A stretch of 48,244 nt of DNA from Deltaproteobacteria bacterium RBG_16_49_23 (GTDB lineage: Bacteria > Desulfobacterota > BSN033 > UBA1163): positions 1-48,244 of the forward strand of contig MGQQ01000084.1 in assembly GCA_001798855.1 (NCBI GenBank), written 5' to 3'. Positions 5,759 through 34,760 of the stretch are shown here, one piece after another (within the stretch, counting starts at the first letter, position 1; the number at the start of each line of letters is the position of its first letter). Made by a program: the position numbers and the translations under genes. The notes under the pieces are model-generated. The model was not told the origin of the DNA, did no database searches, and worked only from the letters and a program-made list of their open reading frames with translations.

Positions 5759-7270
5759 ATGGATCTGCTTCAAAATCTCTATATGGGGTTCTCCATCTCC
5801 CTTACCCCGATAAACATTCTCTACTGCCTTGCGGGATGCTTCTTAGGACAAATTGTTGGCGTCCTGCCAGGCATTGGAGCGCCGACCGCCGTGGCCCTGC
5901 TCCTCCCTCTGACTTTTTCAATTAACCCCACCTCTGCCATCATTATGTTTGCTGGCATCTATTATGGGGTGGCTTATGGAGGAACAATTACTTCAGTCCT
6001 CATCAATGTCCCGGGTGAATCCTCCACGGTCATGACCTGTCTCGATGGATACCAGATGGCCCTTAAGGGCCGGGCTGGAGCGGCTCTATCCGTTGCAGCC
6101 ATCGGCTCCTGGATTGCGGGAACGATTGCTGTCGCTATTCTAATGTGTTTTGCACCGGCCCTGGCCAATTTTGCCCTCCGCTTTGGACCGTCTGAGTTCT
6201 TTGGTCTGGCCTTCATGTCCTTCGGACTGCTTACCGTTTTCGGAGCGGAAGAGCCCATAAAGACGATCATCTCCACGCTGATCGGCCTACTCATTGCGAC
6301 GATCGGGCTTGATGTGGTAAGTGGCATGCCCAGGTTTACTTTTGGTATGCCCCAGCTATTCGGTGGATTTGATTTCATCGTCATGATTTGTGGCATCTTC
6401 GGACTGGCTGAGGTTTTCAATAGCATTGAGGAACCTGAGGAAGGCCAGCTCATTAAGGAGAAGATGCGACTCCGTGATCTCTTCCTCACGAAGGCGGAGT
6501 GGGTCGCCTCGCGATGGGCCATCCTGCGAGGCACAATCATCGGGTTCCTCACAGGGATTATCCCGGCTGGCGGGATCACAACAGCCTCCTTCCTCGCGTA
6601 TCTTGCAGAGAAAAGGGTCTCAAGGCATCCTGAGGATTTTGGGAAAGGAGCGATCGAGGGAGTGGCCTCACCCGAAGCGGCAAACAATGCTGCTTCGATC
6701 AGCGGATTTGCTCCGCTCCTCGCTTTGGGGATACCGGGCTCCCCGACAACGGCTGTCATGTTGGCAGGGTTCATGATGTGGGGGATTCGACCAGGGCCTC
6801 TGCTTTTTCAGACCAAACCAGATCTCGTATGGGGCCTTATTTCAAGCAAGTTCATCGGGAATCTCATCCTCCTTCTGATGAACATTTTTCTCATCCCTCT
6901 ATTTGTTATGATCCTGCGCGTACCTTATACTATTTTGATGTGTTTTATTGTCATCTTCGCATCTGTAGGTGCTTTCACTGTCAACAACAACTTCTTCGAT
7001 GTCTGGATGATGCTCGGATTCGGCATATTGGGCTATATCATGAGGAAACTCAGTTATCCGATCGTCCCCTTGGTCTTAGCCCTGGTTCTTGGAAACCTGG
7101 CGGAAAATTCCATTCGCCAAGCCCTCACCATATCCGGAGGAAGTTTTTCCATATTCTTCACAAGACCTATTTCCGTTCTTTTCATTATCGTAGGCATCCT
7201 CGCCTACCTCAGCCCGGTGATCCGATGGGCGCTGAAGGGAGTGCGGGGCCCCAAAGTAGAGGTATCCTAA
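5759..7270 (+). CDS. tctA: TTT transporter large membrane subunit (TctA)
   Basis: A 503-residue polytopic protein of the TctA family with about 10-12 hydrophobic segments. It shows the conserved early motif GVLPGIGAPTAVALLLPLTF, the region YGGTITSVLINVPGE, and the second repeat motif GIIPAGGITTASFLAYLAEK with AANNAA and LGIPGSPTTAVML. These are the substrate-pathway signatures of the family, and the length matches. It acts with TctB and TctC as a secondary, ion-coupled importer with a periplasmic receptor. It is the last gene of the transporter operon; a long gene-free stretch follows. Confidence 0.93.
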   Translation: MDLLQNLYMGFSISLTPINILYCLAGCFLGQIVGVLPGIGAPTAVALLLPLTFSINPTSAIIMFAGIYYGVAYGGTITSVLINVPGESSTVMTCLDGYQMALKGRAGAALSVAAIGSWIAGTIAVAILMCFAPALANFALRFGPSEFFGLAFMSFGLLTVFGAEEPIKTIISTLIGLLIATIGLDVVSGMPRFTFGMPQLFGGFDFIVMICGIFGLAEVFNSIEEPEEGQLIKEKMRLRDLFLTKAEWVASRWAILRGTIIGFLTGIIPAGGITTASFLAYLAEKRVSRHPEDFGKGAIEGVASPEAANNAASISGFAPLLALGIPGSPTTAVMLAGFMMWGIRPGPLLFQTKPDLVWGLISSKFIGNLILLLMNIFLIPLFVMILRVPYTILMCFIVIFASVGAFTVNNNFFDVWMMLGFGILGYIMRKLSYPIVPLVLALVLGNLAENSIRQALTISGGSFSIFFTRPISVLFIIVGILAYLSPVIRWALKGVRGPKVEVS

Positions 7271-23931: not shown

Positions 23932-24158
23932 TCCGTTCCAATAGACTTGAAATTCCAACCTATTCGTCTCCAATTATATGACCATTGTCATAACGTTGTT
24001 ATTCTGATATAGTGGGGCAAATTGCGATTTCCGAAATCCGCAATCCGAATTTCACATTTGGTATGCTCCAAAAAATTGAAAGATGAAGGTGTGGAAGATT
24101 TTATCATTTAAATAGTAAGAGAAGGAATTCAAGAGTTTTAGTGAGTTGGGGTGTGTTT
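23932..24158. other. Gene-free AT-rich border of the defence island
   Basis: No gene was found. It contains AAATCCGCAATCCGAATTT-type repeat text at about 24022-24055, similar to that at 20289-20395. It is the left edge of the restriction-modification region, where sequence character changes from catabolic operons to defence genes. No tRNA or direct repeat marking an integration site was recognised. Confidence 0.4.
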
Positions 24159-24260
24159 ATGTCAGTTGAACGAATCAAGAAAGAAGAGGTAGATTTCTGG
24201 GTTCGTTCAAGATCGCAAATTGCGATCTTGAATCGTAGTAAGGTTGAGGGTAATGAATAG
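24159..24260 (+). CDS. Possible 33-residue leader peptide upstream of hsdR
   Basis: A short frame, MSVERIKKEEVDFWVRSRSQ and on to EGNE, ends 79 bases before hsdR. It is charged and has no known motif. A perfect 27-base palindrome lies inside it, which argues that the DNA or RNA structure may matter more than the peptide. There is no strong ribosome site. Low confidence. Confidence 0.2.
   Translation: MSVERIKKEEVDFWVRSRSQIAILNRSKVEGNE
24206..24232. promoter_or_regulatory. Perfect 13-bp-arm palindrome upstream of the RM operon
   Basis: TTCAAGATCGCAA, a single A, then TTGCGATCTTGAA. There is no T-run on the plus-strand side, so it is not an obvious terminator. Its position about 110 bases before hsdR suggests an operator for the restriction-modification genes or a leader RNA hairpin. 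Confidence 0.5.
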
Positions 24261-24339
24261 TGTAGGCTCAACAATCAATCTATTCATAATTCGATGCCTT
24301 GGAAATAAGAAGTAGGTGGAGGGCAAAAGATAAACAACG

Positions 24340-27003
24340 ATGACCCCACTTAACGAAGCTGATACCCGAGCCAAACTCATCGACCCTAAGATCAAGCTTT
24401 CCGGATGGGGCGAAAGCCAAATCGAAAGGGAACATTTCTTTCGAAAAGGTGTCACTTTGACTCCCGGACGAATCTATCTTATCGGAAGAGAGACCCGAAG
24501 GGGCCAACCTAAGAAAGTGGATTACCTTCTTCGCTATAAAGGGCTCCCCATTGCGGTTCTTGAAGCGAAAGAGGAGACAAAATCTCCAGATGCAGGTATT
24601 GAACAGGCCAAGGATTATGCAACATTTCTGGACATCCCTTTTGCATACTCAAGCAACGGTCACCATTTTATAGAGTTTGATTTCATAACCCATCGAAACC
24701 GAAAATCGGAGCAATTCCCCCATCCTGAATCGCTTTGGTTACGTTGGAAGAAGGCAATCCCTCGCATCGAAAGCATACCTCTCGCGGCTGATGGGCAAGA
24801 GCCATTTGGCCCTGAGCGAGATCCTCTACTTCATCCCTACTGTCCGCCCGAACGCTGCGGAAATCTCACCCCCCACTATTTCCAGGAGATTGCGATACGT
24901 CGGACCATAGAGAGAATCACAGTAGGTCAAAAGAGAGTTTTGTTAGCCATGGCCACAGGGACCGGAAAGACTTTTGTTGCTTTTCAAATTGCCTGGAAGC
25001 TCATACGCTCTGGTTGGCTTACCCATCTCCACTCAGAGAAACCGGGTCGAATCCTGTTTCTGACCGATAGGATTGTACTTCGCGATCAGGCTTATAATAA
25101 ATTTTCCGCTTTTGCAGACGGAACCAGCGATCCCCGGTACATCATTGAAGAAGACCCTCCCAAGCTTACCCGTGATATCTATTTCGGGATCTACCAAAGC
25201 CTCTGGAGCGAAGATGCAAAAGGTAAAAGGACATATGAGAAATTTCCGCCAGATTTTTTCGACTTGATTATCATTGATGAGTGCCACCGTTCGGGATTTG
25301 GGACATGGCGTGAAATCCTGGATCACTTCTACGTCGCTATCCATCTTGGCATGACGGCCACTCCAAAACAGGACGAAAATATAGACACCTACATGTACCT
25401 CTGTGCCGAGGAGCCGGAAATTGCCATCGATCCTGAGGATCCGAACAAGGGCGACTGGCATCCTCCGGCATATCAGTACAGCTTCGGACAGGGCATTGAA
25501 GACGGATTTCTCGCCACCTATCGGGTCCACCGGGTAAGGACTACTGTCGATGCAAAGGGTCTCCATTTAAAAGACGCTATCGAAGAAGGTGCCGAAGTTA
25601 TCGTCCCTCCTGAAGTGTCTGTTAAAGAGATCTACTATACTCCGGAATTTGAGCGGGAGATTACGCTGCCGGACCGCACTGAAACCATCGTCAAGCACCT
25701 AACGGGCCTGCTGAAAAAGTTCGATCCGATGTCGAAGACCATGGTCTTCTGTGTCGACATGGACCACGCCCGTCTCGTGGCCCGCCTTCTGCAGAATGAA
25801 TTCTCCTATCTGGGAAGCGATAGCTATGCTGTTCCTATCATATCGGAAGAGGGTGAACGTGGAAGGGAATGGCTCGAAGCCTTTGCAGATTCCGACAAGA
25901 GATTTCCGGTAGTCGCTACAACCGCTGAGCTTCTATCCACTGGTGTTGACGTCCCATCTTGTAAGAATATTGTTTTTATAAAAACGTTATCATCGCCGCT
26001 ACTTTTCAAGCAGATCATTGGTCGAGGGTCACGTGTCGATCCAGCCACGGGAAAGCTCTGGTTCAGGATCATCGACTACACAGGTGCCAGCCGACTGTTC
26101 GATACCTGGGATCATCCACCCAGACCACCCGCCGAAAGTCCCCAGGGGCATCAGACGGCCACAATCCAGGGTTCCGTCCGAAATGCAGAGGACCAGGGCC
26201 TCATAGTAGGCGCCTCTGTGTTTGTCCGCACAGGACCAAATATCGTGTTGGGTCCTTTTTATACAGACTCCAATGGCCAATTTGTGATAAAGGGACTCCC
26301 CGAAGGTCGCCTTGATCTTACGGTGCAGGCTACCGGATTCCGGTCGAGAAGTCTCAAAGTGGATACGGTTGCCGATGAGACTACCTTTTTGGAAATCGAG
26401 CTTTACGAGGCAAAACGGGCAAAAAGCAAGATATATGTCCGTGGAATTGAGGTGACCATCGCCGATGAGGTGATCTTTCTCATCGAATCCACAGGGGAAC
26501 AGCTCAACCTTGAGGAGTACAAGAGCTTTACACGCAACCAGGTTCTTCGAGTGTCTCCCACTGTCCGTGATTTAAGAAAGATCTGGATCGATCCCCAAAG
26601 GAGAAAAGATTTCCTTGATAGACTTAGAAGTTCAAGTATTCATCCCGAGCTGATCGCTGAAGTCATGGGAAGAACCGAAGCCGATGCCTTTGATCTTCTG
26701 GCCCATTTGACATTTGGGTCTCCAATTAGGAGCCGAAGCGAACGTGCCGTGGCTTTTCGGAACCGCGAGCAAACGTTCATAGAACGTCAGGGGGAGGAGG
26801 CCCGGCGTGTGATTCTGGAACTTCTCGAAAAATATAGGGTTGTTGGCGTCGAAGAGATTTCTGATGCCCGTATTTTTTCTATCCAGCCTTTCCGAGACCT
26901 GGGCGGGGCTATAGGCATTAGCCAGAAGTTTGGAGGGATTGACAAGCTCCAATCTTCCATGAAAGAAATGCAAGAAAGATTGTATCCTGAGGAGGCCGCC
27001 TGA
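24340..27003 (+). CDS. hsdR: Type I restriction enzyme R subunit with an extra carboxypeptidase-regulatory-like domain
   Basis: An 887-residue motor/nuclease subunit. The PD-(D/E)xK nuclease is N-terminal, with D61, E75 and K77 (VDYLLRYKG, LEAKEE). The SF2 helicase has Walker A ATGTGKT (K210), the DECH box (313-316) and MTATPK. Motif VI is in IIGRGSRVDP. After the helicase a segment of about 85 residues (about 605-692: TIQGSVRNAEDQGLIVGASV, DSNGQFVIKGLPEGRLDLTV) looks like a CarboxypepD_reg beta-sandwich, before the EcoEI-type C-terminal domain. With HsdM and HsdS it cleaves unmodified DNA after translocation. The stop overlaps the hsdM start by one base. Confidence 0.95.
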   Translation: MTPLNEADTRAKLIDPKIKLSGWGESQIEREHFFRKGVTLTPGRIYLIGRETRRGQPKKVDYLLRYKGLPIAVLEAKEETKSPDAGIEQAKDYATFLDIPFAYSSNGHHFIEFDFITHRNRKSEQFPHPESLWLRWKKAIPRIESIPLAADGQEPFGPERDPLLHPYCPPERCGNLTPHYFQEIAIRRTIERITVGQKRVLLAMATGTGKTFVAFQIAWKLIRSGWLTHLHSEKPGRILFLTDRIVLRDQAYNKFSAFADGTSDPRYIIEEDPPKLTRDIYFGIYQSLWSEDAKGKRTYEKFPPDFFDLIIIDECHRSGFGTWREILDHFYVAIHLGMTATPKQDENIDTYMYLCAEEPEIAIDPEDPNKGDWHPPAYQYSFGQGIEDGFLATYRVHRVRTTVDAKGLHLKDAIEEGAEVIVPPEVSVKEIYYTPEFEREITLPDRTETIVKHLTGLLKKFDPMSKTMVFCVDMDHARLVARLLQNEFSYLGSDSYAVPIISEEGERGREWLEAFADSDKRFPVVATTAELLSTGVDVPSCKNIVFIKTLSSPLLFKQIIGRGSRVDPATGKLWFRIIDYTGASRLFDTWDHPPRPPAESPQGHQTATIQGSVRNAEDQGLIVGASVFVRTGPNIVLGPFYTDSNGQFVIKGLPEGRLDLTVQATGFRSRSLKVDTVADETTFLEIELYEAKRAKSKIYVRGIEVTIADEVIFLIESTGEQLNLEEYKSFTRNQVLRVSPTVRDLRKIWIDPQRRKDFLDRLRSSSIHPELIAEVMGRTEADAFDLLAHLTFGSPIRSRSERAVAFRNREQTFIERQGEEARRVILELLEKYRVVGVEEISDARIFSIQPFRDLGGAIGISQKFGGIDKLQSSMKEMQERLYPEEAA

Positions 27004-28520
27004 TGGCCCAGAAAAATTCGAACTCATCCCAGACCAAGAGCGATCTGGCGAACCAAATCTGGAGTGCCTGTGACATTCTCCGGAGGGACAACAACTGCGG
27101 CGGCATCATGGAGTATGTCGAGCATCTGGCATGGCTCCTATTCTTGAAGTTTCTCGACGATCAGGAGGAGGAGTGGGAGACCCAGGCCAGGATCGACAAC
27201 CGAGAGTACCAGTGGATTCTCGAAGGAAAGTTCCGCTGGAAAGAATGGGCGCCCAAAGACTGGCCGGCTGATGACCTGATCCGATTTGTGAATGGAGAAT
27301 TGATTCCCAATCTTCGCAACCTTCAAGGCGATCCTGTCCGGGATACGATCCGTGGCGTGTTCTCCGAGCGAAACGTGATCGTGTGTGCTTCAGGATACAA
27401 CTTAAAGGATGTTTTGAAGATCATCGATGAGGTTAATTTCCATAACAGAGACGATGTGTTCACTGTTTCGCAGGTCTATGAAGAACTCCTGAAACGTTTA
27501 GGGAGTGAAAACCGCATGGCTGGGGAGTTCTATACTCCACGGTCTGTGGTGCGATTCATGATCGAAGTAATCGACCCATTAATTGGCGAAGTGGTCTACG
27601 ATCCTGCATGCGGCTCCTGCGGCTTTTTGGCGCAGTCCTATGAGTGGATGAAAAAGAACGAAATGACTATCCAGGCTAACGAGATGCTTCAACAGAGGAC
27701 CTTCTTCGGTCAGGAGAAGAAGGCTGTTCCAGCACTCCTTGGAGCGCTGAACCTTGTCTTGCACGGTGTTACTGCCCCACGAGTTTACCGGAGAAACACC
27801 CTTGAGGAGAACATCAGACAGGTTTCAGAGCGGTATGATGTAGTCCTGACAAATCCTCCTTTCGGGGGCACCGAAGGCAAACACATTCAGGAAAACTTCC
27901 CGGTTCAAAGCAATGCAACAGAACTTCTCTTTGTCCAGCACATTATGAAGAAACTTTCAGCCAAGGACGGTGCACGCTGCGGCATGGTGGTTCCGGAAGG
28001 AACGCTTTTTCGTGGTGGGGCCTTTGCCACGGTTAAAAAAGATCTGCTGGAAAGTTTCAATCTATTTCTCGTGGTCAGCCTTCCACCAGGAACATTCTCC
28101 CCATATTCAGACGTGAAAACCGGGTTGCTTTTCTTCAAACGGCCCGGCCCAACGAAAGAAGTTCTCTATTACGAGATGCCCCTTCCCGAGGGTCTCAAAA
28201 AGTTCTCAAAAGGAAGCCCAATAGCTGACGAGCACTTTAACGAGGCCGGTAAGATTTGGAAACGATGGAAGGACTACATTGAAACTAAAGCCTCCAGGCC
28301 AGAGAACACATCGACAAGCTGGGTTGAAGATGCCGAGAGCTTGGCCAAGCGCGGTTATGATCTCTCGGCCAAAAATCCCAGCCGCCCCGAAGGTGAGAAA
28401 CTACCGTCTCCAATGGAGATCGTCGCCGGACTCATGGAAAAAGAGCGTGAGATTTTAAGCATCGTAGAAGAATTGGATGAAATGCTGGCAAACAACCAGA
28501 ACGTAGAGAGTACAAAATGA
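27003..28520 (+). CDS. hsdM: Type I DNA methyltransferase M subunit
   Basis: A 505-residue N6-adenine methyltransferase. An N-terminal helical HsdM_N domain (ANQIWSACDILRR) is followed by EFYTPRSVVRFM, the SAM-binding DPACGSCGF (from D200), and the catalytic NPPFGG (N284-F287). It methylates adenine in the sequence chosen by HsdS and is required for restriction as part of the R2M2S complex. It overlaps hsdS by four bases (ATGA), so M and S are translationally coupled. Complete, with no frameshift. Confidence 0.97.
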   Translation: MAQKNSNSSQTKSDLANQIWSACDILRRDNNCGGIMEYVEHLAWLLFLKFLDDQEEEWETQARIDNREYQWILEGKFRWKEWAPKDWPADDLIRFVNGELIPNLRNLQGDPVRDTIRGVFSERNVIVCASGYNLKDVLKIIDEVNFHNRDDVFTVSQVYEELLKRLGSENRMAGEFYTPRSVVRFMIEVIDPLIGEVVYDPACGSCGFLAQSYEWMKKNEMTIQANEMLQQRTFFGQEKKAVPALLGALNLVLHGVTAPRVYRRNTLEENIRQVSERYDVVLTNPPFGGTEGKHIQENFPVQSNATELLFVQHIMKKLSAKDGARCGMVVPEGTLFRGGAFATVKKDLLESFNLFLVVSLPPGTFSPYSDVKTGLLFFKRPGPTKEVLYYEMPLPEGLKKFSKGSPIADEHFNEAGKIWKRWKDYIETKASRPENTSTSWVEDAESLAKRGYDLSAKNPSRPEGEKLPSPMEIVAGLMEKEREILSIVEELDEMLANNQNVESTK

Positions 28521-29704
28521 CTGAAGGTCCTCATAAACTGCCAAATGACTGGCGGTGGGTGAAATTGGGAGAGGTAGCCGGGATCATAATGGGTCAATCC
28601 CCGCCTGGCGGAACTTACAATACGATAAAACAGGGTCCCCCTTTCTACCAGGGAAAAGCGGATTTTGGTGAACTTCACCCGCATCCGCGGTTTTGGTGTT
28701 CTGAACCACAAAAGATCGCTGACCACGGCGATATTTTGATCAGTGTGCGTGCTCCCGTTGGCCCTACCAATTTAGCGGAGGAACAATGCTGCATTGGGCG
28801 GGGACTTGCTGCACTGCGCCCCCAAAAAGATTTGGAAAAGACGTGGCTTTTGTATTACCTGCGAAATATTGAAGCGGAGCTCCAGAGAAGTGGGAAAGGC
28901 TCGGCTTTTGCAGCAATCAAAAAGAAAGATTTGGAAGAATTGTTTCTCCCTTTTCCACCTCCCCATGAACAGCACCGCATCTTGACGAAAGTGGATGCAC
29001 TAATGGAGCGGGTGCGGGAGGCGAAGCGTCTCCGCATAAAAGCCCGCGAAGATGCTGAGCGCCTGATGCAAGGTATACTATCGGAGACCTTTCCCAATCC
29101 TCAAAATGACTTATCTCATGGCTGGATTTGCGGACAGGTGGCGGATATTAGCGAAAACCCTCAATATGGATACACTCAATCGGCTAAAGATGACCCGGTT
29201 GGACCGAAATTTTTACGCATCACTGATATCCAAAACGGCGACGTTAATTGGCAAAGCGTCCCATACTGCATATGTGATGATGCAACGATTAGCAAATATC
29301 TTCTCCAAGATGGAGATATAATGTTTGCTCGATCTGGCGCTACCACCGGTAAAACTTATCTTGTCAAGGAATGCCCGAAAGCGGTCTTTGCTTCTTACCT
29401 CATAAGACTCCGCCTGCGACCCGGGGTTATGCCAGAGTACTTATTCTGGTTTTTCCAATCACCCTTTTATTGGAACCAGATCAAGCTACGCGGAGCAGCC
29501 CAACCAAATATGAATGCACGAATTCTTGGAAGCTTACGAATACCTCTACCCTCATCCGAACGAGAACAGCGTCGCATCGTAGAGTATCTAAATACAGTAA
29601 AGGTTAAGGTTTTAGCTCTCAATAGGGGTCATGAGCATACCAAAGCAGAACTCCAGCGCTTAGAACAAGCGGTTTTGGATAGGGCCTTTCGTGGGGAATT
29701 GTGA
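28517..29704 (+). CDS. hsdS: Type I specificity subunit
   Basis: A 395-residue protein with two target-recognition domains separated by conserved helical spacers. TRD1 is at about 10-165 (LPNDWRWVKLGEVAGIIMGQSPPGG...), with spacer helix EQHRILTKVDALMERVREAK. TRD2 is at about 200-355 (GWICGQVADISENPQYGYTQ...), with spacer EQRRIVEYLNTVKVKVLALN and a final LEQAVLDRAFRGEL. Complete and unmutated, so this is a working candidate specificity. The bipartite target sequence cannot be read from the protein. Confidence 0.95.
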   Translation: MTEGPHKLPNDWRWVKLGEVAGIIMGQSPPGGTYNTIKQGPPFYQGKADFGELHPHPRFWCSEPQKIADHGDILISVRAPVGPTNLAEEQCCIGRGLAALRPQKDLEKTWLLYYLRNIEAELQRSGKGSAFAAIKKKDLEELFLPFPPPHEQHRILTKVDALMERVREAKRLRIKAREDAERLMQGILSETFPNPQNDLSHGWICGQVADISENPQYGYTQSAKDDPVGPKFLRITDIQNGDVNWQSVPYCICDDATISKYLLQDGDIMFARSGATTGKTYLVKECPKAVFASYLIRLRLRPGVMPEYLFWFFQSPFYWNQIKLRGAAQPNMNARILGSLRIPLPSSEREQRRIVEYLNTVKVKVLALNRGHEHTKAELQRLEQAVLDRAFRGEL

Positions 29705-29788
29705 ACCTATCAAGTAGCGGGCTAATGAGGATTTGCTCCCAATCGGCAACGGCGTAGATGACCCGGAAGGTCTAAGGAGGGGGGCGTT

Positions 29789-32602
29789 ATGAACATAACA
29801 AGAAAAGATGTAGGTTATACAATTTACTCCAGATTGGAAGAATCTCTTCGTATCTTTATTAAGGAGTGTTTACTAAACCAATTCGGTGGCGAGTGGCATA
29901 CCCATATACCCGAGGGTATTTGGGGTAAGAAATTGGAGACTTTGCCTTTCAAGATGGCGAAAGATGTTGATGATCCCGGTCTTTTGCTTGAAGAAACCGA
30001 CATTCCGGATCTTAAGGAGATCGTTTGCTATAAGAAAGCGTATTCGATTTTTTTCCCAGATAACACGATCAAATTAGAGGATTTCCGAGAAAGAATGGAT
30101 AGACTCTATGAGATTAGAAATAAGATTGCCCACGTAAAACGAACCTTTACAGCGTTTGACTTAGACTATCTTATTGAAATAGCAAAGACATTTATGCCCA
30201 TACTTGGCACAGTTTCTAGGGACCTGCAGGAAACTCTTGATTGCATAGATAAGAATCCTGAAAGGGTCCTAATTAGAATACCTCCAAACTTCTTCATTGA
30301 TGATGAACAGACCTCATTTCCATACATTACCAATCTCCCGCCGGGGGACTATGACCCTGACGGTGGCTTCATCGGACGGAAAGAAGATCTAATTAAAATA
30401 GAAAACATTGTTCTTGGAGAACTCCACAGAGTAGTTACCATCTCAGGTGCAGGGGGGGTCGGGAAAACAGCTCTCGCCCACCGGTTCTGTCAAAATCTTC
30501 TTGGAAAGACAGAATTCCCATTCGATGGCTTAGTGTGGGTAAGTGCAAAGGAGGAGAAACTAACCTTAAAGGGCATCGAACCGATCGAGCCCTCATTCCG
30601 GAATTACGAGGGCGTACTTGATAGTATCCTTGACACTTTCGGATGGTTAGATGATCTTTCTAAGAGCCTTGACAGGAAACAAGAAAGTGTCGAAATGATA
30701 CTTAGGGCAGGGGATAAAGGAATTCTCCTCGTGGTTGATAATCTGGAAACTATTCAAGATGAGCGAGTCAGAGAATTCATAAAGGATTTTCCACCTCCCA
30801 GTAAGGTTTTAATAACAAGTCGTATGGGACTAGGGGAAGTTGAAAGAAGATACGTCCTTAAAGAGATGACCAACAAAGACGCTGTTACCCTCCTTCGTGC
30901 TATCGCCCGAGAAAAAGGTTGTGAATCCCTGGCAAAATTGCCGGAGGATGTTTTGTTAAAATATGCGAACAAAATGTCTAGATATCCTTTAGCCATAAAA
31001 TGGGTGGTAGGTCAGGTTGCTCTTGGTAGGGAAATTGACCTGGTTATTGGTGATTTGACTTCTTCAGAGGGGGATGTCGCGAAATTTTGTTTCGAACACA
31101 TATTTAATTCCTTCTTAAATGAAGATTCAAAAATGGTATTGTTTGCCCTCGCTGCTTATGACAAGGCCCTGGTAAGAGGGATATTAACGCACGTTTCAAA
31201 TCTTACGACTGAGCAACTTGACGTTGCTCTTAGAGAGCTCACGATAGCCTCATTTGTTATTCCAACTCAACTTAAGTCATCGGACGACGCAATAGAGACA
31301 AGATATGAATTGCTGCCTTTGACAAGAAACTTTATCTTTTCAAAACTTCAATCTCGTCCCGAAATAAACAGAGCCATCAAGACCAGGATAGAAATGGTTC
31401 AAACCCTTGTGGAGGAAGCAGAAAGAGCAGGCAGAGAATACCGTTATTCTCTGCGCCATCTAGGAGCAGAAACTGACGAAGAAAAAGTGGCAGCCATGTG
31501 GGCTATCACAGCGTTTCAAAAATATCAGGCAGGGGATTATGGGGGCGCTGTTTTAAGCTTTGAGAAGGCAGCTCAAATTGCCCCGAAGTTTTCAGCGGTT
31601 TACCGGAATTGGGCCACAATGGAAAGTGAAGCAGGTTTTTACGAAAAAGCCGATAATTTAATGCGAAAGGCAACTGCCCTTGACCCTAAAGATTCGAGTA
31701 TATGGTTTGTTTGGGGAAATATAGAAAAACGGAGGCAGCGATATGATAGAGCTTATGAATACATAAAGAAAGCATTGGATTTATCCCCTAACGATGCACC
31801 AATTCTCGGAGCCCTTGGTGAAGTGGAGAAGAGAAGAGGGAATTTTGAAAATGCAGACGAACTTCTTCGCAAGGCTCTTGAAGAAGGATGTTATGACGTT
31901 TCCCGGAGGAGACACGAAATAGTATGTTATACATCTCTTGCAGATAACTCACGAAGGTGGGCTGAAGCACTTACAAGGGATAGACGAAACGAAGACGCAA
32001 TTATTAAGCTGAGAGAATCCTATGAGTTTGCTGTCAAAGCCGCAGAATTGGGCAAGGATGATCCTCGGGCCCAAGATACATTGAGAGAAGTATCTCTGGA
32101 CTTGGCATTCAAAGTAAGAAGATTAGAAGGGATAAGAGGTGCCAAACCGTACTTTCTGAATGCTATTAAAGAAAATGCGAGAAGGATAAAAGAAAAGAAA
32201 ATTACAGAAGTTGCATGTTACGGATTAGCCGACGGTTTAATTCAAGCGGGAGATATCGAGGAAGCCAGAAAATACTATAATTTGGGGCGCAAGTTTCAGA
32301 TGGGCAGTCACTATACCGACAAAATCAAAGCCCTGGCCTTGGAGTTTTCAGAAGAACGGATTACAGGAAGGCTTTACCATATCGTGCCCAAGAAGGGGTA
32401 CGGTTTTTTGGAACCTGAGGGTCAGATAGGTCAATCCGTGTACCTGCACGTAAGTGAAATCGTACCATCTATCACAGTTGAAGAATTTGAAAATTTAAAA
32501 GGTCATAGCTTCACTTTTCTAATTGACAAAGATAACAGAGGACCACATCCGGCAGCCAAAAGAGTTCGTATAATAAATAGTATAGAGGGGAAAAACACAT
32601 GA
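29789..32602 (+). CDS. HEPN-STAND NTPase-TPR-cold-shock-domain protein (putative defence effector)
   Basis: A 937-residue multidomain protein. Residues about 1-150 are helical and hold R110-NKIA-H115, an R-x4-H motif of HEPN ribonucleases, within a Swt1-like region. Residues about 195-500 form a STAND/NB-ARC-like NTPase: Walker A GAGGVGKT (220-227), Walker B ILLVVDN (D317), LITSRM as sensor and a SRYPLAI-type winged-helix start. Several TPRs follow (about 578-720). The last 75 residues look like a cold-shock domain, with KGYGFL (869-874) and VYLHV (884-888). AAGGAGG precedes the ATG. It lies 84 bases after hsdS. By analogy with STAND defence proteins, the TPRs would sense a phage or RNA trigger and HEPN would cut RNA. 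Function inferred. Confidence 0.85.
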   Translation: MNITRKDVGYTIYSRLEESLRIFIKECLLNQFGGEWHTHIPEGIWGKKLETLPFKMAKDVDDPGLLLEETDIPDLKEIVCYKKAYSIFFPDNTIKLEDFRERMDRLYEIRNKIAHVKRTFTAFDLDYLIEIAKTFMPILGTVSRDLQETLDCIDKNPERVLIRIPPNFFIDDEQTSFPYITNLPPGDYDPDGGFIGRKEDLIKIENIVLGELHRVVTISGAGGVGKTALAHRFCQNLLGKTEFPFDGLVWVSAKEEKLTLKGIEPIEPSFRNYEGVLDSILDTFGWLDDLSKSLDRKQESVEMILRAGDKGILLVVDNLETIQDERVREFIKDFPPPSKVLITSRMGLGEVERRYVLKEMTNKDAVTLLRAIAREKGCESLAKLPEDVLLKYANKMSRYPLAIKWVVGQVALGREIDLVIGDLTSSEGDVAKFCFEHIFNSFLNEDSKMVLFALAAYDKALVRGILTHVSNLTTEQLDVALRELTIASFVIPTQLKSSDDAIETRYELLPLTRNFIFSKLQSRPEINRAIKTRIEMVQTLVEEAERAGREYRYSLRHLGAETDEEKVAAMWAITAFQKYQAGDYGGAVLSFEKAAQIAPKFSAVYRNWATMESEAGFYEKADNLMRKATALDPKDSSIWFVWGNIEKRRQRYDRAYEYIKKALDLSPNDAPILGALGEVEKRRGNFENADELLRKALEEGCYDVSRRRHEIVCYTSLADNSRRWAEALTRDRRNEDAIIKLRESYEFAVKAAELGKDDPRAQDTLREVSLDLAFKVRRLEGIRGAKPYFLNAIKENARRIKEKKITEVACYGLADGLIQAGDIEEARKYYNLGRKFQMGSHYTDKIKALALEFSEERITGRLYHIVPKKGYGFLEPEGQIGQSVYLHVSEIVPSITVEEFENLKGHSFTFLIDKDNRGPHPAAKRVRIINSIEGKNT

Positions 32603-32652
32603 GAACAGATGAATATATGCGAGAGGGCAGGGGAGCAGCTCTTGACATTTGA
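32599..32652 (+). other. 17-codon frame coupled to the STAND gene, likely gene remnant
   Basis: ATGA overlaps the STAND gene stop and starts MRTDEYMREGRGAALDI followed by TGA. Neighbouring frames continue with protein-like text (LTFDEPIKKI, MRSVPDDLKERYGHP), as if a following gene had decayed by frameshifts. No family recognised. The rest of 32653-32831 holds no gene. Confidence 0.25.
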
Positions 32653-32831
32653 CGAGCCAATCAAGAAAATATGAGGGACGTTCATGCGGAGCGTGCCTGA
32701 TGATCTTAAGGAAAGGTACGGGCATCCATAAAAAAGCTGGCCGGTTCTAAAAAAAAGATGGCGAGATGAGGGGGCAGAGAGCAAAACGCCAAGGGGAAAG
32801 AGTGAAGGCTAAGATTGAAGCGTGAAGCAAG

Positions 32832-33485
32832 TTGTCGGGTCTCAGATTCATTGAGGAGCGGTTGACTGAATTTTTCAGTCAAGAGGGTCACTTGAAAAGT
32901 AGAGATCAAAGACCAAATCTTTACATCATCGCGGGTCCTAATGGAGCTGGGAAGACGACCTTTGCTCGTAAGTTTCTTCCAGATTATGCAAAATGCTTAG
33001 AATTTGTGAACGTAGATCTAATTGCAAGTGGTTTATCTCCATTCGATCCGGAAAGAGCTGCTCTCAAAGCTGGAAGAATTATGCTGGAGCAAATTCATTC
33101 GTTAGCTGAGCGAGGCGTGGATTTCGGGTTTGAGACCACCCTCTCAGGAAAGACATATGTGAAAGTCCTGCAGGAGGTGAATAAAAGGGGTTATCTCATT
33201 CATATATTTTTCCTTTGGATTACCGATGTGGAGTTAGCACTCGAACGCATTAAGCTACGGGTGCGAAATGGAGGACATCATATTCCGGAGGATGTTGTCC
33301 GCCGCCGTTTTATTAGAAGCCTGCCAAATTTTTTCCGTATCTATAAACCACTGGCAGACTCATGGGTAATCTTTGATAATTCAGGGGATGTCCCCAAAAT
33401 GATTGCTATTCAAGAATCTGGAAAGATCGAAATACTTGATCGAGATCTCTTTAACATTTTATTAAGATTTAGAGGGGACCAATGA
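32832..33485 (+). CDS. Zeta-toxin-like P-loop kinase
   Basis: A 217-residue protein from a TTG start (the only in-frame start near the N-terminus). Walker A is GPNGAGKT (35-42), followed by FVNVDLIASGLSPFDPE, FGFETTLSG and IFFLWITDVELALERIKLRV, the pattern of zeta/UDP-N-acetylglucosamine kinase-like proteins. Zeta enzymes phosphorylate UDP-GlcNAc and poison cell-wall synthesis. This stand-alone form may act on another small molecule. A 70-residue gene overlaps its stop by four bases. Being next to RM and STAND genes suggests a toxin or immunity role, but function is not shown. Confidence 0.8.
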   Translation: MSGLRFIEERLTEFFSQEGHLKSRDQRPNLYIIAGPNGAGKTTFARKFLPDYAKCLEFVNVDLIASGLSPFDPERAALKAGRIMLEQIHSLAERGVDFGFETTLSGKTYVKVLQEVNKRGYLIHIFFLWITDVELALERIKLRVRNGGHHIPEDVVRRRFIRSLPNFFRIYKPLADSWVIFDNSGDVPKMIAIQESGKIEILDRDLFNILLRFRGDQ

Positions 33486-33694
33486 AAAAGGGGAAAAGAA
33501 CGTCTTTCCTTTTGGCATACAAAGCCGAAGAGGCACTTCGCAAGGCTGTGGCTGAAGCGATTGCCGACCATCGCCGGAATGGAGTTCCGATTGCCATCTG
33601 GCGCAATGGCAAAGTGGTACGTATTCCTGCTGAACAGATCGAGGTTCGGGAACCTGAGGTGGAGTACTCCGTCTCTCATAAGAAGCGAAAGTAG
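33482..33694 (+). CDS. Small partner protein of the zeta-like kinase
   Basis: A 70-residue, strongly basic protein (MKKGKRTSFLLAYKAEEALR..., RNGVPIAIWRNGKVVRIPAE). It starts inside the kinase stop codon (ATGA). A helical N-terminus is followed by a small beta hairpin. I have seen similar small genes beside zeta-like ATPases, and it could be the antitoxin or a chaperone. Known epsilon antitoxins are encoded before zeta, so the order here differs. No enzyme motif is present. Confidence 0.65.
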   Translation: MKKGKRTSFLLAYKAEEALRKAVAEAIADHRRNGVPIAIWRNGKVVRIPAEQIEVREPEVEYSVSHKKRK

Positions 33695-33849
33695 GAAAGG
33701 CTGGCGGGGACGTAATTAAGTTGTTTAAGAATATTGCCTCCGAATTGTTTCGGCGGCGAACTTTACAATTGAAGAGCATGCGACAAAGGGTCGGATCGAG
33801 GGGCAGATCTTTAAGGTTGAAAAACCAATTGTAAAAAAGGAGAACTCCA

Positions 33850-34499
33850 ATGCCAAGACAGCCACGAATAACATCAAAAGGGACATGCGCACTTTGTAAA
33901 TCGGCATTTGGTAAATCGACCATGACAAGACATCTGCAGTCATGTATGGAAAAAAGCCAGATTGATGAGAAATTTACGAAAGATTCATCCTTTTTATTAA
34001 AATCCTTTCATCTCCTTGTAGAAGGGCATCATCTGCCGGAATACTGGATGCATCTTAAAGTATCAAGCCATGCGCGTTTTGAAGATTTGGACAATTTTCT
34101 CAGAGAGATATGGCTTGAATGTTGTGGTCATATGAGCGCTTTTCGCATTGGAAGAGAGGAGGTAAAAAAAGCAAGAAGCTTGAGTATGTTTTGCATCCTG
34201 GAATGCGATTAAACTATGAATATGATTTTGGCAGTACCACAGAGCTTATGGTAAAAGTTGTTTCCGAGTTTAAAAGCAATATAAAAACGGGTGAAGTGGG
34301 AATCCTTGCAAGGAATGATCCACCCCAGATTAAATGCTCAAAATGCGATCATCTGGCCACACGCATCTGCACAGAATGTATTTATGAGGATGCAGGATGG
34401 CTTTGTGATGACTGTGCTGAGGATCACAAATGCGGTGAAGAGATGCTGCTTCCTGTAGTTAATTCACCTCGAACTGGAGTGTGCGGATATGTGGGATAG
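33850..34499 (+). pseudogene. pRiA4b ORF-3-like protein in two frames
   Basis: Frame one (33850-34212) has a zinc-finger-like N-terminus (C-x2-C, H, C in TCALCKSAFGKSTMTRHLQSC) and a domain start (HLLVEG...FLREIWLECCGHMSAF). Frame two (34119-34499) completes it with LHPGMRLNYEYDFGSTTEL, the pRiA4b ORF-3 family signature, and a Cys/His cluster (CSKCDHLATRICTEC, CDDCAEDHKC). The frames join exactly by a -1 shift at GTA-AAA-AAA-G. Total length is 650 bases, one short of a clean frame. It is either a one-base deletion in an A7 run or a programmed -1 frameshift. A GGAG precedes the first ATG. Function unknown; relatives are found in mobile DNA. Confidence 0.7.
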
Positions 34500-34598
34500 T
34501 CTTTTAGGTGAGAAGCTTGCTCGGGTAGCCGTTAGCCACGGGCCTGAAATCGAGTCTTGCAGGTATTCTGGTGCAACACGACCAAACCAGTACACTTC

Positions 34599-34643
34599 AT
34601 GAAACTTTTACTGGATACATGTGTTTGGGGCGGAGCCCTTTAA
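34599..34643 (+). pseudogene. Start of a PIN-like toxin gene, remnant
   Basis: ATG at 34599 opens MKLLLDTCVWGGAL and stops at TAA 34641. The LLLDTCVWGG start is characteristic of DUF5615-like PIN proteins, and the acidic D fits a PIN nuclease active site. Everything after codon 14 is missing, so this is a 5' remnant. Confidence 0.45.
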
Positions 34644-34664
34644 GCACCGATCGGGAGGAATGAT

Positions 34665-34760
34665 ATGCCCCTAAAACCGTGGTACAAAGTTGTTACTCCC
34701 CGTTAAGTCCTGCGCGAGGGTGTAGCAAATATGATATGTCACTATCTTAATTTCGTGAGG
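34665..34760 (+). pseudogene. Start of a second gene, remnant
   Basis: GGGAGG followed by ATG at 34665 gives MPLKPWYKVVTPR, a stop (TAA 34704), then VLREG in the same frame. This matches, as I recall it, the N-terminus of large DUF499-type ATPases (KPWYKVVTPREDLREG). The rest of that gene is absent before the SDR gene. A decayed defence or helper gene at the island's right border. Confidence 0.4.

Follow-up and report, generated by a model that had tools for sequence, protein, structure and literature searches.

The 937-residue protein encoded at 29789-32602 of a 48,244-nucleotide stretch from Deltaproteobacteria bacterium RBG_16_49_23 (contig MGQQ01000084.1; this whole stretch is hereafter the window) is predicted, from sequence profiles and a structural model, to join four parts in one chain: a Swt1-like HEPN domain (residues ~5-155), an NB-ARC/STAND NTPase (~193-420), TPRs (~563-853) and a C-terminal cold-shock OB fold (858-928). 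It adds one member to an architecture known since 2013, and we consider it probably an NLR-like sensor, antiviral or stress-related, that is encoded by a single gene and has a ribonuclease (RNase) effector. The features of the protein, all on the plus strand, are listed below with the evidence for each; row counts refer to the family alignment described further on.

29789-32602, +: HEPN-NB-ARC(STAND)-TPR-CSD protein, 937 aa (open reading frame (ORF), Pfam, family alignments, AlphaFold2 model)
29801-30253, +: predicted Swt1-like HEPN domain, residues ~5-155, all-helical (helices 5-39, 72-83, 96-114 and 122-155 among others; hhalign 98.2%, HEPN-only model)
30116-30133, +: R110-N-K-I-A-H115, where helix 96-114 ends; a predicted RNase motif of the metal-independent kind (54/54 rows)
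30365-31048, +: NB-ARC / STAND NTPase, residues ~193-420 (Pfam NB-ARC 1.4e-8 over 210-408)
30446-30469, +: Walker A GAGGVGKT, residues 220-227 (K226 in 56/56 rows)
30725-30742, +: Walker B LLVVDN, residues 313-318 (D317 in 56/56 rows)
31475-32347, +: TPR superhelix, residues ~563-853 (Pfam TPR_2 3.9e-17; helical pairs in the model)
32357-32575, +: predicted cold-shock domain (CSD) with an OB fold, strands 858-866, 871-876, 884-887, 907-913 and 922-928 (family profile, Pfam, model)

The ORF is intact, with an open frame from an ATG start, and the full protein was modelled by AlphaFold2 with a pLDDT of 87.5 and a pTM of 0.66. In Pfam searches with the single protein, NB-ARC and the TPRs scored above their cut-offs, whereas HEPN_Swt1 (2.8e-4) and CSD (0.0037) both stayed below the gathering scores. 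Given that these two domains are divergent and sub-threshold on the single protein, they were retested with family profiles. No PADLOC family was assigned to the protein, which gave weak partial matches to mad8 (2.4e-4), PDC-M34B (4.8e-4) and Avs4 (0.042), and no NCBIfam family was assigned either, all matches being below cut-off. The original prediction, made from the letters of the window, had named an R-x4-H motif from R110 to H115, Walker A at 220-227, Walker B at D317 and RNP1-like and RNP2-like motifs at 869-874 and 884-888, and its domain assignments and residue numbers are all borne out, the letters at these places being R110-N-K-I-A-H115, GAGGVGKT, LLVVDN (313-318), KGYGFL and VYLHV. 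It had staked itself on an HEPN-like N-terminus, on conservation of R110 and H115 and on a C-terminal CSD fold; we found an N-terminus that is predicted to consist of helices, one of which ends at the motif, both residues conserved among homologues, and a five-stranded C-terminal CSD in the model.

Relatives were collected in a scan of genome contigs, using a four-sequence alignment that covers the N-terminal half and two NTPase-region patterns, which gave 105 encoding relatives, 80 of them kept. We read 59 ORFs, leaving out the 24 weakest of the 80 loci (L075-L098). Seven rows that were short, cut or distant (L030, L063, L069, L073, L074, L100 and L101) were also left out and are excluded from the HEPN motif counts. 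The resulting alignment holds 56 rows, including the window protein and three plasmid proteins, or 54 after removal of L050 and L059, the ORFs of which lack the N-terminal region.

Sequence analysis revealed that R110 and H115 are kept in all 54 rows with letters at these positions (the remaining two of the 56 have no N-terminus), and no other column of the 54-row HEPN alignment is invariant. The selection of the relatives did not impose this conservation, because they were chosen by the two NTPase-region patterns and not by the HEPN motif. HEPN_Swt1 (PF18731) scored 21.6 against a cut-off of 27.5 on the single window protein, and matched 16 of the 54 rows at E <= 0.01. As a reference we used 11 Swt1-HEPN domains from 148 genomes of the phylum, all scoring at or above the Pfam cut-off, one of them only when joined with its frame neighbours. 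In hhalign, the family HEPN alignment matched these bona fide domains at 98.2% (pairwise E 5.2e-14, 114 columns), with R-x4-H (the IRN..xH stretch) in register, as compared with 2.7% against PF05168-type HEPN and 0.1% against the CSD alignment. Genuine Swt1-HEPN scored 1.0% against PF05168-type HEPN; the test thus discriminates between HEPN families, and a low score against PF05168-type HEPN is not evidence against membership of the superfamily. The HEPN-only model reached a pLDDT of 92.7, and the motif is located where helix 96-114 ends and the loop starts. This position, together with the polar N after R, matches the R-x4-6-H motif described at the end of helix 3 in HEPN domains (Anantharaman et al. 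2013, PMC3710099). A search of PDB sequences with the HEPN profile gave four matches, all unrelated, at E >= 0.3. By profile and motif position, the N-terminal domain is assigned at the sequence level to Swt1-like HEPN (PF18731), and it may, as expected of such families, dimerise and act as an RNase.

In the NTPase region, Pfam NB-ARC scores 34.8 bits in the window protein (E 1.4e-8; cut-off 23.5) and matches 54 of 54 rows at E <= 0.01. K226, D317 and N318 are kept in all 56 rows, although the conservation of Walker A (K226) is partly built in, as a search pattern covers it. Pfam together with Walker A and Walker B places the region among the STAND/NB-ARC NTPases. Foldseek with the full model returned 6mfv, a STAND protein with TPRs, as the top solved match (E 6.5e-13, query TM-score 0.24) and human SAMD9 (9zjs) as the second (E 1e-9, query TM-score 0.15), followed by many plain TPR proteins at 1e-9 to 1e-6. 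Given the low TM-scores and the many plain TPR matches, these results support shared parts and not a shared overall pose. The likeness to 6mfv, an archaeal protein from Pyrococcus, lies in a STAND NTPase with TPRs; it differs in that its title names no CSD. With the whole-family profile against the PDB, TPR proteins alone appeared among the matches listed (60 of 358).

The C-terminus is assigned to the cold-shock domains by profile similarity, a five-stranded OB barrel in the model and the presence of both RNP motifs. On the isolated tail of the window protein, Pfam CSD (PF00313) gave 6.8e-5 and 23.1 bits, below the gathering cut-off of 27. By eye, we picked CSD-like tails in 47 of the 54 rows, window included, and the profile of these 47 matched Unr (5e-17) and CspB (5e-16) in the PDB. 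Pfam CSD matched 37 of the 47 isolated tails at E <= 0.1, and 25 of the 54 whole proteins at E <= 0.01. RNP1 (KKGYGFLE, 868-875, containing KGYGFL at 869-874) is found in the second strand of the model and RNP2 (VYLHV, 884-888) in the third. The two motifs occupy the corresponding strands in CspA and CspB. An S1 domain in place of the CSD was considered for the window tail and dropped, since S1-like domains matched 5 of the 47 tails as against 37 for CSD. One member from Anaerolinea (Chloroflexota; 7544-10306 of L047) carries two CSD stretches.

The original prediction had taken the domain order to be unfamiliar, a view that does not hold, for the order already appears in Anantharaman et al. 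2013 (PMC3710099). A table there lists Swt1-HEPN + STAND + TPR + S1 for Npun_F6454, MED222_16016 and Desac_1927, and one sentence of that paper mentions HEPN and STAND with cold-shock-like OB domains. We therefore dropped the idea of a new fusion, given this earlier description and the CSD-like tail in 47 of 54 rows. The window protein resembles the 2013 proteins in effector family, NTPase class, repeats, kind of C-terminal OB domain and, as far as the paper gives it, order; R-x4-H of that group is graded 'mostly active' (PMC3710099). The difference is that the 2013 table names S1, whereas the window tail is a CSD by profile, and the two are likened by description. On sequence and model, the window protein, with Swt1-HEPN, STAND, TPR and a C-terminal OB domain of RNA-binding type in one chain, fits this HEPN-STAND-TPR-OB group. 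In the open-licence PMC literature, the three locus tags were found in Anantharaman et al. 2013 alone.

A parallel outside prokaryotes is human SAMD9/SAMD9L, an antiviral protein. The core of SAMD9 consists of AlbA_2, a SIR2-like domain, an Apaf-1-like P-loop NTPase, TPRs and an OB domain nearest to cold-shock proteins (Mekhedov et al. 2017, PMC5445408; this text does not contain the word HEPN), and a 2025 review describes SAMD9 as an anticodon nuclease (PMC13245274). The two open-licence PMC papers in which SAMD9 and HEPN both occur appear to be about CRISPR. The window protein thus shares the part order behind a different RNase-type domain (PMC5445408, PMC13245274); it differs in its effector, which is HEPN and not AlbA_2/tRNase-SA, and in keeping K226 whereas SAMD9 is without the Walker A lysine, and no SIR2-like domain was found in it. 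The TM-score of 0.15 points to like parts in like order and does not show common descent. Neither AlbA_2 nor SIR2 appeared in the window protein among the best 25 of 33 Pfam families at E <= 0.1 (24 at E <= 0.01). Since these two SAMD9 features were not seen, a SAMD9-like way of working is possible, but the protein is not assigned to the SAMD9 family. A tripartite logic of effector, STAND and sensor in one protein is also that of the bNACHT antiphage STAND proteins (bacterial NLRs). The AVS antiphage STAND proteins have it in common as well (PMC13245274), although the window protein received no PADLOC family assignment. HEPN and CSD are combined also in the CoCoNuTs, a predicted RNA-directed defence, but there on McrBC GTPases (PMC11090510).

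The architecture recurs in bacteria and archaea and is sporadically distributed, the HEPN form spanning several phyla of bacteria and five groups of archaea. Among 395 genomes of the window's phylum, two give a match at E <= 1e-10, namely the window's own and one encoding a protein with AlbA_2 in place of HEPN. The nearest eight relatives, 28-42% identical to the window protein, come from a Clostridiaceae metagenome-assembled genome (MAG), a bacterial MAG, a filamentous cyanobacterium and five archaea (L022-L026: Bathyarchaeota, Methanosarcinales, Woesearchaeota, Thermoplasmatota and Lokiarchaeota, the last being L026). In the tree, the window protein and these eight form a group of nine with a support of 100/100, within which the archaea are a single branch. 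Searching 59 genomes, its own included, with the whole protein, we found that among the matches listed those outside the window gene fall in the TPR region. By tblastn, 26 plasmid records matched, none over 80% of the query, and phage records gave 0 matches; viral contigs gave 0 matches in a first scan and 3 in a second. A member with the HEPN motif and a CSD-like tail lies at 7506-10073 of L099, an IMG/VR viral contig, suggesting that the gene may travel on phages.

Proteins of NB-ARC type with SLFN_AlbA_2 up front were seen in the window's phylum (L018), Rhizobium (L121) and Phaeobacter (L122). They carry a related NB-ARC-TPR chassis, to which a different effector of nucleic-acid type is fused N-terminally, although in the Phaeobacter protein NB-ARC is below cut-off and no TPR model is among those listed. 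Unlike the window protein, all three lack HEPN and show neither a CSD match nor a visible tail. These AlbA_2 relatives branch outside the HEPN group, the support of which as one group is only 37; an exchange of effectors is therefore conjectural.

The gene is located in an inserted island next to a type I restriction-modification (RM) system. The features of this neighbourhood are as follows.

24024-34750, no strand: inserted island, ~10.7 kb (blastn of the window against 9 genus relatives)
24340-27003, +: HsdR, type I restriction subunit of the EcoAI/FtnUII type (Pfam; NCBIfam restrict_EcoAI 691.8 bits, cut-off 550)
27003-28520, +: HsdM, type I DNA methyltransferase (Pfam N6_Mtase 5.4e-56; PADLOC MTase_I 1.1e-142)
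28517-29704, +: HsdS, type I specificity subunit (Pfam Methylase_S 2.4e-28)
32832-33485, +: Zeta-toxin-like P-loop kinase downstream of the HEPN gene, candidate part of the system (Pfam Zeta_toxin 6.4e-13)

The genes hsdR, hsdM and hsdS overlap one another by a few bases, and the end of hsdS is followed after 84 bases by the HEPN gene on the same strand. Four of the nine genus relatives (L112, L116, L118 and L119) have an empty site, in which the aligned ends of the genes flanking the island, for an enoyl-CoA hydratase and an SDR, are 8-71 bases apart, as against 10.7-10.9 kb in the window. In the five others, the contig ends 474 bases on (L113) or other sequence is present (L114, L115, L117 and L120). 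The RM-HEPN block was thus either acquired as an island or lost in the four empty-site relatives, and we favour gain because of the patchy distribution. In L114, the 3' end region of the enoyl-CoA hydratase occurs twice (250-2537 and 5961-6164), ~3.4 kb apart, and no such repeat is seen in the window; the site may be a recurrent integration spot. Residues 608-688 of HsdR (26161-26403) form a carboxypeptidase-regulatory-like domain between the helicase part and EcoEI_R_C (Pfam 3e-12), an insert that looks unusual for a restriction subunit. The Zeta-toxin-like kinase and a 70-aa ORF overlapping its end (32832-33694) look like a small unit of their own. At 33850-34499, two ORFs overlap in different frames, the second weakly matching PRiA4b_ORF3 (0.026), and this is possibly a broken gene. 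A promoter scan predicted 10 sites, fewer than the shuffled mean of 13.4; the 24 terminator-like sites exceeded the shuffled mean of 13.1, but were scattered within genes.

For the neighbours of relatives, we took 38 loci together with 4-kb flanks and scanned 91 of 149 ORFs, picked by hand, with 60 of 64 ORFs from 16 loci as controls. At 1e-10, PADLOC gave 67 families near HEPN loci as against 5 near controls, a count in which many entries, among the 25 of the 67 listed, are several models on few proteins and which is not a rate. With the window HsdM as sole query, 39 distinct genomic matches were obtained in 45 genomes (228.7 Mb, tool-rounded sizes). Three of them, in 3 of the genomes, lie in the 0.72 Mb that flank homologues of the HEPN gene, whereas 0.12 would be expected under uniform placement. 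The RM enrichment is real, but the linkage is loose. In Lokiarchaeota, a type I RM system lies ~4 kb from the member L026.

These data enable us to propose a putative working model. In the resting state, the STAND NTPase would keep the protein closed. A trigger made during infection would bind to the TPR superhelix, while the C-terminal cold-shock OB domain would serve as an accessory nucleic-acid-binding element that either senses or delivers RNA to the effector. Nucleotide exchange would then lead to the assembly of protomers, accompanied by pairing of the N-terminal HEPN domains. Finally, the R110/H115 site would cleave RNA, so that translation and infection stop. From the protein families concerned, we infer autoinhibition, oligomerisation, TPR sensing, RNase activity and growth arrest. 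The idea of the original prediction, that the CSD or the TPRs may recognise phage RNA or a phage protein and that HEPN would then cleave RNA, is likewise reasonable in view of these families. This model is favoured by the HEPN identity and the invariant R-x4-H at a helix end and loop start, NB-ARC in 54/54 rows, the Walker residues in 56/56, the 6mfv and SAMD9 matches, the CSD fold, the patchy occurrence, the empty site in 4/9 relatives, the HsdM enrichment and the precedent of DS-11, in which HEPN mutation abolishes defence (PMC13092281).

Several points weigh against this model. The residues E17 and R21 may correspond to the acidic Ex3[KR] element of HEPN domains, yet they sit in the first helix of the model, whereas that element was placed in helix 2 (Anantharaman et al. 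2013, PMC3710099). Foldseek with the HEPN-only model gave no PDB match at E <= 0.001 (43 matches up to E 10), which makes the HEPN fold an inferred one and not a structurally matched one. In titles, abstracts and passages of the open-licence PMC literature, we found no experiment on any HEPN-STAND-TPR-CSD member. At the other end of the chain, Pfam CSD at E <= 0.1 misses 10 of the 47 tails chosen by eye, and 7 of 54 rows end before the CSD while being otherwise complete, which needs at least three changes on the tree. Furthermore, the RNP signature is relaxed, with strict [FY]GF[ILV] in 31/47 tails and this plus an RNP2-type His in 16/47, so RNA binding by the CSD would not be constant across the family, though the window protein has both motifs. 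The missing tails and lost RNP residues also argue against the CSD being the sensor proper, to which free single-stranded RNA of phage or cell would bind and open the STAND switch. This alternative has in its favour the CSD profile match, both RNP motifs in the window protein and the tail retained in 47/54 rows; TPRs and similar repeats are the usual sensor kind in STAND proteins (PMC7159879), and we regard this alternative as rather unlikely.

The neighbourhood bears on two further alternatives, both of which we hold improbable. STAND proteins have uses other than defence, and the protein could be a regulator, for example of development or stress, with the HEPN domain processing a cellular RNA. 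No recurring partner gene is evident, each Pfam family being limited to at most 3 of the 91 scanned neighbours, and the families listed are largely ordinary genes, which would suit such a regulator; against it stand the insertion in an accessory island, the members on plasmids and viral contigs, the patchy presence and the RM enrichment. Alternatively, the protein might guard the neighbouring type I RM system, its RNase firing in response to anti-restriction proteins of phages or to disturbance of the HsdRMS complex. PrrC guards EcoprrI in like manner. The 84-base spacing behind HsdS on the same strand, a Rhizobium plasmid member also near hsdRSM and the above-chance HsdM linkage are consistent with this, as is the frequent occurrence of PrrC/RloC HEPN RNases in RM operons, but PrrC is an ABC-ATPase fusion and not a STAND-TPR-CSD protein (PMC3710099). 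The original prediction had set the gene beside a type I RM system, which is true at the window locus and no rule elsewhere: of 62 related loci, 5 have an HsdM-like gene nearby (L014, L026, L027, L064 and L071, the last found only with the Rhizobium HsdM), as does one of five in the archaeal branch (L026), several contigs being so short that linkage there is invisible. Gene order and orientation also vary among loci. With constant hsdRMS linkage absent, an obligate RM component was dropped, and the rarity of this linkage, like the lack of a recurring partner gene, tells against the preferred model as well.

The preferred one-gene RNase sensor leaves room for a more specific reading, which we consider doubtful, that in this family prokaryotes have their counterpart of SAMD9: an NLR that arrests translation and cuts tRNA or mRNA, in which the cold-shock OB domain reads the state of RNA or ribosomes and an ancient STAND-TPR-CSD chassis has had its RNase swapped (HEPN here, the AlbA_2 tRNase in animals and AlbA_2 in some bacterial relatives). 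This parallel is a hypothesis on the mode of working, not on membership.

In summary, this study describes a conserved single-gene family of bacteria and archaea, Lokiarchaeota included, whose single chain is predicted to combine an effector of RNase type, a switch of apoptosome type, TPRs as the sensor and a tail of RNA-binding type. If its defence is indeed the cutting of RNA, the family would offer a compact model for RNase NLRs; if the SAMD9 parallel is true, it would provide a bacterial system for studying the role that the C-terminal OB domain plays in SAMD9.

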